Assembly: GCF_030408755.1 (NCBI RefSeq)
Contig: NZ_CP047209.1
Coordinates: 1,116,001 to 1,180,000, forward strand
Direction: 5' to 3'
DNA length: 64,000 nt
Source of the DNA: Corynebacterium felinum
Lineage (GTDB): Bacteria; Actinomycetota; Actinomycetes; Mycobacteriales; Mycobacteriaceae
Shown: one piece after another, positions 52,682 to 55,098 of the stretch
Layout: every line of letters starts with the position of its first letter
How positions within the stretch are numbered: position 1 is the stretch's first letter
Translations under genes and position numbers: made by a program
Notes under the pieces: model-generated
The model's input: the letters and a program-made list of their open reading frames with translations, nothing else
Databases searched by the model: none
Told to the model about the DNA's origin: nothing

Positions 52682-53878
52682 TTAAGTTCCCTTGACGTTT
52701 AGAATTTGGCGCAACTTGTGCTTGATTTCCACCAGGTCTTTGGAGTCTTCCATCACCTGATCGATATCCTTGTAGGCGTCGGGAATCTCGTCGATCCACT
52801 CCGAACCTGGGCGGTAGACAATGCCTTCCATTCGCTTCTCCAAATCCTGAAGAGTAAAACGGCGCCGCGCCTCGTTCCGTGAGAACCTCCGGCCCGCCCC
52901 ATGGGGTGCGGAATTCATTGAGGCAGCATTGCCCTTACCCTCAACCACGTAGCTGGCGGTACCCATGGAGCCTGGGATCAACGCAAGACGCCCTTGATCT
53001 GCGCGAACCGCACCCTTTCGCGTCAGCCACACCGTGCGGTTGAAGTGTTGCTCGCGAGTGGTGTAGTTGTGGTGGCAGTTAATCCGCTGGATAATCTCCA
53101 CATCTGCCCCCATAAACGTGGCAAGACAATCGGTGAAGCGATCAATCATCTCCTCGCGGTTTAGAAGCGCAAAGCGTTGTGCCCAGTTAAGCTCCTTGAT
53201 GTACTCATTGAACTCCTCGGTCCCAGCAACGAAATAGGCAAGATCGTTGGTGGTCAGTGGAATCCACCATTGGTGCATGAGCTTCTGCGCCTTGGCAATA
53301 TGCTTGCGTGCAATCTTGTTGCCGACTCCTCGGGAACCTGAGTGGAGGAACATCCACACACGATCTAATTCATCAAGACACAGCTCAATGAAGTGGTTTC
53401 CACCACCCAAAGTGCCCAACTGTTGGCGCCAGTTCTTCGAATGGGAAAGATCCACATTATCCTTCTCGGCCAGCTCAGCGAGCTCACTGCATCGCTTTTT
53501 AGCAGTGGGCTGTAACTCCCAGTCGTTGTAGTTGCCCGCCGACATGGGGATGGCGTCGATAAGCGCCTGGCGCAAGACGGTGAGATCCTTCCCCTCAAGA
53601 TCGGCGGCAGTAAATTGGGTCAAAGCTGCGATCATGCCACACCCAATATCGACACCAACTGCTGCAGGAATCACGGCATCGATGGTGCCGAAAACCGTAC
53701 CCACAGAGGAACCAAGCCCCGTGTGTGCGTCCGGCATCAGCGCAACATGCTCATGCACGAAAGGCAACGCGGCTAATTGCTGAGCCTGCTCGAGCGTGGA
53801 GTCCTCCACCAGTGATGCAAAGCTAACAACCTGCGGCTTGTGTGGCTTGAGATGACGATCAAAGCTCTTTCGAGACAT
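52682..53878 (-). CDS. rtcB: RNA-splicing ligase RtcB
   Basis: GTP- and Mn2+-dependent ligase that joins 2',3'-cyclic-phosphate (or 3'-phosphate) and 5'-hydroxyl RNA ends. It repairs RNAs cut by endonucleases. It has 398 residues. The metal-binding Asp/Cys pair is in AVGVDIGCGMIAAL, then GGGNHFIEL, FLHSGSRGVGN, the HHNYTTREQHF histidines, and the guanylylated histidine region near NSAPHGAGRRFSR. No archease gene is adjacent. Its start follows AAAGGA. Upstream lie a small ORF, a terminator and a promoter that together look like an attenuator. Confidence 0.94.
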   Translation of the reverse strand: MSRKSFDRHLKPHKPQVVSFASLVEDSTLEQAQQLAALPFVHEHVALMPDAHTGLGSSVGTVFGTIDAVIPAAVGVDIGCGMIAALTQFTAADLEGKDLTVLRQALIDAIPMSAGNYNDWELQPTAKKRCSELAELAEKDNVDLSHSKNWRQQLGTLGGGNHFIELCLDELDRVWMFLHSGSRGVGNKIARKHIAKAQKLMHQWWIPLTTNDLAYFVAGTEEFNEYIKELNWAQRFALLNREEMIDRFTDCLATFMGADVEIIQRINCHHNYTTREQHFNRTVWLTRKGAVRADQGRLALIPGSMGTASYVVEGKGNAASMNSAPHGAGRRFSRNEARRRFTLQDLEKRMEGIVYRPGSEWIDEIPDAYKDIDQVMEDSKDLVEIKHKLRQILNVKGT

Positions 53879-53946
53879 TGAAAAACTAATCCTTTCTTAG
53901 ACGTTGAGTGATCAGCGGCTAAAAAAGTGAGGCACTCAAGCAAAAA

Positions 53947-53977
53947 GCGCCGCTGAACACGTAAAGGTTCGCGGCGC
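53947..53977 (-). terminator. Intrinsic terminator between leader ORF and rtcB
   Basis: Reading the minus strand, GCGCCGCGAAC (53977-53967) pairs with GTTCAGCGGCGC (53958-53947) with one bulged base and an 8-nt loop, followed by TTTTTG. It begins 14 bases after the stop of the small ORF and about 70 bases before rtcB. Transcription must pass it to reach rtcB. Confidence 0.8.
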
Positions 53978-53991
53978 ACAGTAGTGAAAAA

Positions 53992-54063
53992 TTAGCGCAG
54001 AGAAAGCACCGCGAAAGAAGTAGGTTCTTGGGAATACTGGCGTTTGATTGTCTGATTCAACAT
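53992..54063 (-). CDS. 23-residue leader peptide ORF of rtcB
   Basis: ATG at 54063 to TAA at 53994-53992. An excellent AAAGGAG ribosome site lies five bases before the ATG, stronger than that of most genes here. The peptide is MLNQTIKRQYSQ followed by EPTSFAVLSLR. Its codons 17-20 (bases 54015-54006 on the minus strand) are complementary over 10 bp, one of them G-U, to the 5' arm of the terminator just downstream. Translation would therefore decide which RNA structure forms. It may alternatively be an independent small protein with its own terminator. Confidence 0.65.
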   Translation of the reverse strand: MLNQTIKRQYSQEPTSFAVLSLR

Positions 54064-54108
54064 GGCTACTCCTTTCGAGAAAAATTGACGGTGACGGTGC
54101 TTTTCAAG

Positions 54109-54137
54109 AATTAATATCTCCGGCGCGGAATAGTCAA
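54109..54137 (-). promoter_or_regulatory. Promoter of the rtcB leader transcript
   Basis: On the minus strand TTGACT (54137-54132) and TTAATT (54114-54109) are separated by 17 bases, with an overlapping TATTAA. The start would fall about 40 bases before the leader ORF, immediately downstream of the dehydratase gene. Confidence 0.6.
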
Positions 54138-54141
54138 TCAT

Positions 54142-55098
54142 CTACCCCCATTGGGGGAGGGTTGCGAGTTCCTGTGCTGTGGCGTTGCCTCCGCTTATAA
54201 CGATTCCGACTTTTTCACCAACGCCGAGCTCATATGCACCGGCGAGTGCTGCTGCGCCCGCCCCTTCTGCGAGGGTATGTGCGCAGGTAGCAAGCAGTGC
54301 GCGTGCCTGGTCGATTGCGTGGTCGTCGACAAGCACAAAGTCGTGCAAACCTGCGCGCATAATAGCTTGCGTACGCGGACATGAGGAGGTGGTGGCAAGC
54401 CCAAGCGCACGGGTGCGGGAGGGGGCGGTGCTCATCTCACCTGTGCGCCAGGAGATGTGGGCGGCAGGTGCGAGGGCGGATTGTACACCGATCACGGCAG
54501 TGGAGAGCCCAAGCCCGTCGCGTACGAGGCAAGCACCTGCTGCGCCGGAGCCGGAACCGATGGGAATATACACGGCATCGCAGTCGGGGTGTTCAGCGAA
54601 TAGTTCAAGATAGACACCGGCGTGACCGGCAATAATTTCAGGTTCAGTGGGGGCGATGAAGCTCAGCGATTCTCGCAGCGCAGTTTGCTTCGCATAAGCG
54701 ATAGATTCGGCCATATCCGCCCCGTGGGCAATAACTTTCGATCCGAGAAGTTCGATGCCCTCAATGCGTTCGGTGGGGGTGGATTCGGGTACCACAATGG
54801 TGCAGTCCGTATTGTGCATCTGTGCAGCATACGCGATCGATTGGGCGTGGTTTCCGGTGGAGGCGCTGATGACCCCGTCGCCGAGTTGGTTGGGTCCGCG
54901 GAGTGCGAACAGTGCGATGCCGCCGCGGATTTTGAAGGCACCGGTGGGTTGGGTGTTTTCGTGCTTGAGCACCATGGTGCGCCCAGTGTGCTTGTTGAGC
55001 ATGGGGTAGCTAAAACAGCAGGTGGGTGGCAGGTGGCGGAGGTATTCCTCATGTGCGGCGTGGATGAGGTCGAGGGAAATGTGTGTGCTGTTGGCCAT
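54142..55098 (-). CDS. PLP-dependent threonine/serine dehydratase family enzyme
   Basis: A 318-residue enzyme of the tryptophan-synthase-beta fold. The PLP lysine is in NTQPTGAFKIRGG (about residue 56), the phosphate loop is GSGSGAAGA, and a C-terminal EGAGAAALAGAYELG closes the active site. Members deaminate threonine or serine to a keto acid; some are racemases. There is no C-terminal ACT-type regulatory domain, so it is the catabolic rather than the biosynthetic IlvA form. A LysR-type regulator diverges from it across 72 bases and very probably controls it. Confidence 0.85.
   Translation of the reverse strand: MANSTHISLDLIHAAHEEYLRHLPPTCCFSYPMLNKHTGRTMVLKHENTQPTGAFKIRGGIALFALRGPNQLGDGVISASTGNHAQSIAYAAQMHNTDCTIVVPESTPTERIEGIELLGSKVIAHGADMAESIAYAKQTALRESLSFIAPTEPEIIAGHAGVYLELFAEHPDCDAVYIPIGSGSGAAGACLVRDGLGLSTAVIGVQSALAPAAHISWRTGEMSTAPSRTRALGLATTSSCPRTQAIMRAGLHDFVLVDDHAIDQARALLATCAHTLAEGAGAAALAGAYELGVGEKVGIVISGGNATAQELATLPQWG

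Follow-up and report, generated by a model that had tools for sequence, protein, structure and literature searches.

A glutamine-rich translated leader as a probable transcription attenuator of the RNA ligase gene rtcB in Corynebacterium

How is rtcB, the gene of an RNA-repair ligase, controlled in Corynebacterium felinum, where a short ORF and an intrinsic terminator stand directly upstream of the gene? A sequence-only reading of the window (the whole 64,000-nt stretch of contig NZ_CP047209.1 that was analysed) had proposed a transcription attenuator that switches rtcB on when translation is impaired. Judged from the sequence of this locus and of its counterparts across the genus, it is very likely that rtcB is attenuated by a translated leader, and the entire model, in which a translating ribosome governs transcription attenuation through glutamine control codons, appears likely as well. 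The parts of the locus are the following:

54137-54109, minus strand: putative, weak promoter-like pair TTGACT-17-TTAATT (sequence; absent from the promoter scan output)
54075-54069, minus strand: leader Shine-Dalgarno (SD) sequence AAAGGAG (sequence; 5 nt spacing to the ATG at 54063)
54063-53992, minus strand: leader ORF of 23 codons, MLNQTIKRQYSQEPTSFAVLSLR and stop (sequence; an SD-preceded, glutamine-rich leader recurs in the genus)
54054-54052, 54039-54037 and 54030-54028, minus strand: leader glutamine codons 4, 9 and 12 (sequence)
54015-54006, minus strand: antiterminator 5' strand TTCGCGGTGC, inside the leader ORF (duplex z -4.9; minimum free energy helix without the terminator 3' arm)
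53977-53947, minus strand: intrinsic terminator hairpin (-18.9 kcal/mol, z -3.2)
53977-53968, minus strand: antiterminator 3' strand GCGCCGCGAA, which is the terminator 5' arm (sequence)
53946-53942, minus strand: terminator U tract, TTTTT (sequence)
53896-53890, minus strand: rtcB SD sequence GAAAGGA (sequence)
53878-52682, minus strand: rtcB, RNA ligase of 398 aa (Pfam PF01139, E 2.9e-118; solved RtcB relatives)

A check of the sequence found the AAAGGAG site and the 23-codon leader ORF where the sequence-only reading had placed them, and the terminator with its T-run and the 10-bp antiterminator helix (54015-54006/53977-53968) were likewise present, both beyond what chance folding would give. 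Its promoter claim held in part: TTGACT-17-TTAATT does exist, but it is weak, with TTAATT matching TATAAT at three of six positions by manual count, and the promoter scan did not list it. The hairpin at 53977-53947 was not listed by a simple terminator scan either. That scan reported a second terminator-like hairpin at 53951-53931 (minus strand), which overlaps the first, is followed by TCACTTTTTT and may contribute to termination. In the encoded protein, the DIGCG, GNHF, HSGSRG and HGAGR stretches align with solved RtcB proteins. RtcB enzymes join 2',3'-cyclic phosphate or 3'-phosphate ends to 5'-hydroxyl ends. The window RtcB scored 151.7 bits with TIGR03073 (PrfH-associated RtcB), for which the cut-off is 271.8, and no match to RtcA or RtcR was found among the six neighbouring ORFs scanned. 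The window genome also carries a second-RtcB fragment with an open frame of 177 residues (L199; G000:C1:2653990-2654517).

The two helices of the window were then evaluated by folding. None of 200 dinucleotide shuffles was as good as the terminator segment (-18.9 kcal/mol), and the helix between TTCGCGGTGC and GCGCCGCGAA had a duplex energy of -19.4, where shuffled sequences averaged -8.9 (p 0.005, the lowest value that 200 shuffles allow). With the 3' arm of the terminator excluded (54027-53959), exactly the helix 54015-54006/53977-53968 was obtained (-16.8 kcal/mol, z -2.8; 0 of 200 shuffles equal). With both arms included (54015-53935) the terminator was favoured (-25.0, z -1.9), and the stability of the entire leader (54063-53935) was ordinary (z -0.9); antitermination would therefore need to be kinetic. 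The leader glutamine codons are CAG, CAG and CAA (3 of 23 codons), and tRNA-Gln genes with the anticodons CTG and TTG are present in the window genome. The antiterminator strand begins 15 nt past the first base of the last glutamine codon (54030 to 54015); the duplex listing gives 14 nt because the segment printed there includes an unpaired base at its start. A ribosome has a footprint of roughly 30 nt, which extends about 12-13 nt past the first base of the A-site codon. Paused at codon 4, 9 or 12, a ribosome would leave the antiterminator strand free, while one at the leader stop would cover approximately 54012-53980, masking most of this strand and leaving the terminator free.

The locus combines the sequence features of a trp-type attenuator: an SD-preceded short ORF, control codons for one amino acid ahead of the antiterminator, an intrinsic terminator separating leader and gene, and a mutually exclusive antiterminator that overlaps the end of the ORF. 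In the proposed mechanism, RNA polymerase would transcribe the leader while a ribosome translates the short glutamine-rich ORF. With ample Gln-tRNA, the ribosome would arrive at the stop codon and cover the antiterminator strand in the 3' part of the ORF, the terminator would form and transcription would stop before rtcB. With the ribosome waiting at a glutamine codon, the antiterminator strand would lie free just ahead of it and could pair with the emerging terminator 5' arm, and the polymerase would continue into rtcB. The signal would be stalling at glutamine codons, and its natural cause would be damaged or uncharged tRNA-Gln, of which RtcB could rejoin the cut ends. The earlier proposal that rtcB comes on when ribosomes stall is retained in this mechanism, but its trigger is better described as a shortage of charged tRNA-Gln than as a general impairment of translation.

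A search of the genus with the leader DNA matched its own genome alone (1 of 242 genomes), and position and composition were therefore compared instead. RtcB-family matches (E 1e-50) were found in 78 of the 242 genomes, and 70 loci with usable upstream DNA were kept, comprising 56 main-type loci (RtcB identity of at least 64.2%) and 14 divergent loci below this value. Left out were loci without an N-terminal match (L084, L087, L091, L092), truncated loci (L014, L090), paralogues (L029, L030), order-level loci (L017, L019-L028), L054 and identical upstream copies; the fragments of G219 and G231 lie outside the main-type set. Upstream ORFs with an SD sequence, a length of 12-60 codons and two or more glutamines were searched for automatically. 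They precede 37 of 56 main-type rtcB genes and none of the 14 divergent ones; among 245 control genes taken from four genomes there were 7 such cases, and among the 100 controls whose gap measures 200 nt or more there were 4. As a background, 400 kb of control DNA contained, on both strands, 15 SD-preceded ORFs with at least three glutamines. Choosing the ORF by the best SD alone gave an SD-preceded ORF at 44 of the 56 main-type loci. The curated set holds 53 leaders, from 52 main-type loci and one divergent locus (L077, added by eye); since 11 of the 53 were recognised by eye, partly on their glutamines, the glutamine-blind test described below weighs more. A leader was searched for and not found at four main-type loci (L011, L070, L073, L075).

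A tree was built from the RtcB proteins of 68 Corynebacterium rows and nine others, without L039 and L077, whose open frames are shorter than 300 aa. All 51 leader rows fell into one clade of 55 (support 99/97), which also holds four leaderless rows, and the remaining 13 Corynebacterium rows formed a separate clade with Dietzia. The leader label changes three times on this tree, for example by one gain and two losses. Conservation across the genus is thus seen in the architecture (52 of 56 main-type loci, one RtcB clade) and not in the leader DNA. A script for glutamine-rich leaders (at least two glutamines in the first 25 residues) was also applied to L109-L172, 64 loci of which 62 are not labelled Corynebacterium; these 62 yielded no credible leader, and the ORFs listed for three of them (L124, L126, L156) were judged spurious, being long or poorly placed. 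The other two loci, L127 and L140, do carry the Corynebacterium label, and a leader is present in L140 (C. gallinarum). The arrangement also seems to be present in C. glutamicum (L056), a harmless species used in the laboratory, which makes it testable there. In G117, taken to be C. glutamicum ATCC 13032, the leader starts at C1:3202783, the terminator ends near 3202918 and rtcB starts at 3202953. By eye, the leader peptides resemble each other only within families (A-K), and no motif was seen across families except glutamine richness. The downstream genes offered no functional clue in common; a downstream gene recurs at most within one family, in no more than four loci, and some of these genes are probably spurious ORFs.

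The sequence-only reading had described the leader without specific control codons and had overlooked its glutamine codons. In the glutamine-blind selection, glutamine made up 11.8% of the residues of 31 non-redundant leaders compared to 3.1% in 32 control uORFs (from 245 genes), and at least two glutamines were present in 24 of the 31 leaders compared to 7 of the 32 controls. In 36 curated representatives the glutamine share was 12.2%, while their two alternative reading frames gave 1.3% and 3.2% and the RtcB proteins themselves 3.4%. Glutamine was the most enriched residue relative to the leaders' own position-specific base composition (126 codons observed, 84 CAG and 42 CAA, with 82.8 expected; z 4.8), followed by phenylalanine (z 4.0) and serine (z 2.9) under the same null. 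Glutamine density was 20% at codons 6-10, 19% at codons 11-15, 9% at codons 16-20 and 5% or less at codons 21-35; the 13% at codons 36-40 concerns 45 residues and is contributed by long leaders. L032, and to some extent L031, carry their glutamine codons at the far end of a long leader, not in the position expected upstream of the antiterminator. In family B (L049, L053, L058, L059), which shares the motif YQLLQQ, the codons of the last two motif glutamines alternate between CAA and CAG.

At a loose threshold of -8 kcal/mol, a hairpin and T-rich tail were found behind the leader in 37 of the 53 curated loci and were absent from the other 16. The stricter cut-off of -14 kcal/mol was reached in 32 of the 56 main-type loci and 2 of the 14 divergent ones, and in 21 of 100 regions upstream of control genes. 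Antiterminator pairing was tested in the 32 of 53 leader loci (23 of 36 representatives) in which a hairpin of -14 kcal/mol or better starts 0-60 nt downstream of the leader stop codon. The leader region 3' of the first glutamine codon formed a duplex with the terminator 5' arm that was below the shuffled mean energy in 29 of 32 loci (mean z -1.49); taken singly, 10 loci reached p ≤ 0.05 and 22 were not significant, and the combined Stouffer value of -8.45 over the 32 loci counts relatives several times. Extreme duplexes were those of L037 (-36.7) and L042 (-46.8). When partners were swapped among the 23 non-redundant loci, leaders paired better with their own terminator (p 5e-5, the minimum attainable with 20,000 permutations), and the p value was unchanged without the window locus. 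Ensemble folding up to the hairpin apex in these 23 loci gave a pairing of arm and ORF of 0.62 compared to 0.41 for shuffled sequences, with a probability of at least 0.5 in 17 and p ≤ 0.05 in 9 of the 23, in a test that is mildly biased in that the best glutamine was chosen on the real sequence and retained for the shuffles. The genus comparison, a check that the sequence-only reading had itself proposed, with recurrence in one RtcB clade, glutamine enrichment in the blind test, partner-specific pairing and ensemble folding, adds to the parts present at the locus and supports attenuation by a translated leader as first proposed.

The four loci with the most similar RtcB (77% identity; L002, L031, L032, L033) fit the model poorly and, taken singly, do not support it strongly. 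The duplex z values were weak (L002 -0.84, L031 -0.51, L033 -1.04), no qualifying terminator was found in L032, and in the ensemble test L031 was significant (p 0.04) but L002 and L033 were not. A separate leader family (L010, L012, L062, L066-L069), in which no U-tract terminator was found, is also present in contigs named C. striatum, C. phoceense, C. aurimucosum and C. minutissimum. In L010 a hairpin of -16.2 contains the rtcB SD sequence, and this form may be a translational version of the switch.

Among known systems, the nearest are the trp, ilvB, leuA and aroF leaders of C. glutamicum, which are described or named in the available text of five papers (PMC4046766, PMC3890552, PMC1262725, PMC5784534, PMC10272879). 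Like the rtcB leader, these amino-acid attenuators have a short translated leader with control codons, in the trp case together with a terminator and an antiterminator, but they control biosynthesis or synthetase genes, whereas the rtcB leader precedes an RNA-repair ligase and its control codon is that of glutamine. Most known trp-type attenuators control genes of amino-acid supply or of synthetases, and there are a few others; to our knowledge none serves RNA repair, and we know of no other leader in which glutamine is the sensed residue. The sole leaders named in the available text of two C. glutamicum transcriptome papers are trpE, leuA, ilvB and aroF, and the word rtcB is absent from the main texts of both (PMC4046766, PMC3890552). 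The small RNA cgb_33325 (PMC4046766, Table 2) was considered as the rtcB leader of C. glutamicum and rejected, its neighbour cg3334 being an MFS-type permease according to the available part of PMC4353348.

The RtcR-controlled rtcBA operon of Salmonella and E. coli resembles the proposed switch in that rtcB is induced by tRNA damage; broken tRNAs induce the Salmonella rtc operon via RtcR, as stated in the accessible portion of PMC7790460. There, an activator protein senses the fragments, whereas in Corynebacterium a cis-acting RNA switch would respond when a single tRNA no longer functions. T-box riboswitches likewise sense tRNA charging to control a downstream gene, but here the sensing would be done by a translated ORF, and neither a T-box nor any other Rfam family matched 53600-54400 at E up to 5. 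The literature matches listed, which mostly do not cover subscription journals, contain no description of rtcB attenuation or of a comparable glutamine leader, in line with the earlier remark that none was known. As far as these searches show, this would be the first case of a known mechanism applied to an RNA-repair gene.

It is highly improbable that chance placed a short ORF before the ordinary terminator of an upstream gene, with no regulation involved: the leader DNA is unique to the window genome, the promoter is weak and the nearest relatives fit poorly, but recurrence, glutamine enrichment and pairing specificity all speak against coincidence. CAGCTG-like stretches in the leaders and in some terminator hairpins raise the question of whether the glutamine richness reflects RNA pairing through CAG/CTG palindromes rather than codon reading. 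We consider this very unlikely, as the 42 CAA codons among 126 are unable to pair in this way and the enrichment persists against the leaders' own position-specific composition. A further explanation is that the leader acts as a general sensor of ribosome stalling or antibiotics, or encodes an arrest peptide, in which case anything that slows translation of the leader would induce rtcB and glutamine would be incidental. A ribosome that halts anywhere upstream of the antiterminator would indeed expose it, and E. coli Rtc has been tied to ribosome-targeting antibiotics (PMC12606134, in the part available). However, glutamine richness is the only peptide feature seen to be shared across families, its enrichment is specific and positioned, and family B keeps its glutamines through synonymous changes, which makes a general sensor unlikely.

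With glutamine codons as the site of stalling, the same attenuator could respond to glutamine or nitrogen limitation through uncharged tRNA-Gln, rather than to tRNA cleavage, with RtcB belonging to a starvation or stationary-phase programme. We take the rtcB gene of C. glutamicum to be cg3329, from the gene order dps, fpg, rtcB, secreted protein (by eye) and the cg3329/cg3330 listing. In a table of SigB-related changes, cg3329 has a positive ratio of 1.09 (PMC1779776). The cis-element itself cannot distinguish a cut from an uncharged tRNA. Cas13a cutting in E. coli includes tRNA-Gln and does not grossly lower charged tRNA, according to the available text of PMC11042736, and cleavage need therefore not starve ribosomes. 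Against limitation as the signal, the gene product is an RNA ligase, and the automatic search found such a leader at none of the 14 divergent rtcB genes, L077 having been added by eye. Nor do we know of a role of RtcB in glutamine supply. On balance, we would place the limitation signal not far below an even chance.

Cleavage of tRNA-Gln as the natural signal is a link drawn from the known activity of RtcB enzymes, and we put it forward tentatively. The integrity of tRNA-Gln might then be read through the translated leader and answered by a ligase able to rejoin tRNA-Gln, a damage loop without a sensor protein that we regard as possible rather than probable. Besides Cas13a, the toxin VapC52 acts on a tRNA-Gln, that of a phage (PMC13273310, in the part available). 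Both are bacterial nucleases able to cut tRNA-Gln, and neither has been shown for Corynebacterium. The ends made by VapC are not the classical RtcB substrate. If the tRNA-cleavage reading is true, damage to the translation machinery would be sensed directly by a ribosome waiting on one codon and would turn on the repair enzyme, and the loop would imply that the genus repeatedly faces a tRNA-Gln-cutting nuclease, be it from phage defence, the toxin of a rival or a toxin-antitoxin system. Among the matches listed there was no paper on the control of rtcB, and tRNA-Gln would be a testable candidate substrate for the RtcB of this group.

Several further observations concern rtcB genes elsewhere. 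In L087, L091 and L092, an intein-like sequence seems by eye to split rtcB before the active-site cysteine region. A second RtcB type in Corynebacterium (approximately 41-43% identical) is preceded by a start-stop mini-ORF, an ATG or GTG followed directly by TAA, after a strong SD sequence. It occurs in five of six loci (L193, L195, L196, L197 and L198, not L194) compared to 4 of 274 control ORFs, lies 79-182 nt ahead of the first matched RtcB residue and, by eye, is followed by a terminator-like hairpin in some loci. This mini-ORF could sense failure of initiation or termination. None was found in 30 order-level relatives. In 9 of 30 order-level genomes (L252-L281), ARAGORN placed tRNA genes no more than 330 nt ahead of the second-type rtcB, some of them degenerate in appearance when inspected by eye. 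The gene 3' of the second-type rtcB in L197 resembles, by eye, an RNA 2'-phosphotransferase (KptA/Tpt1).
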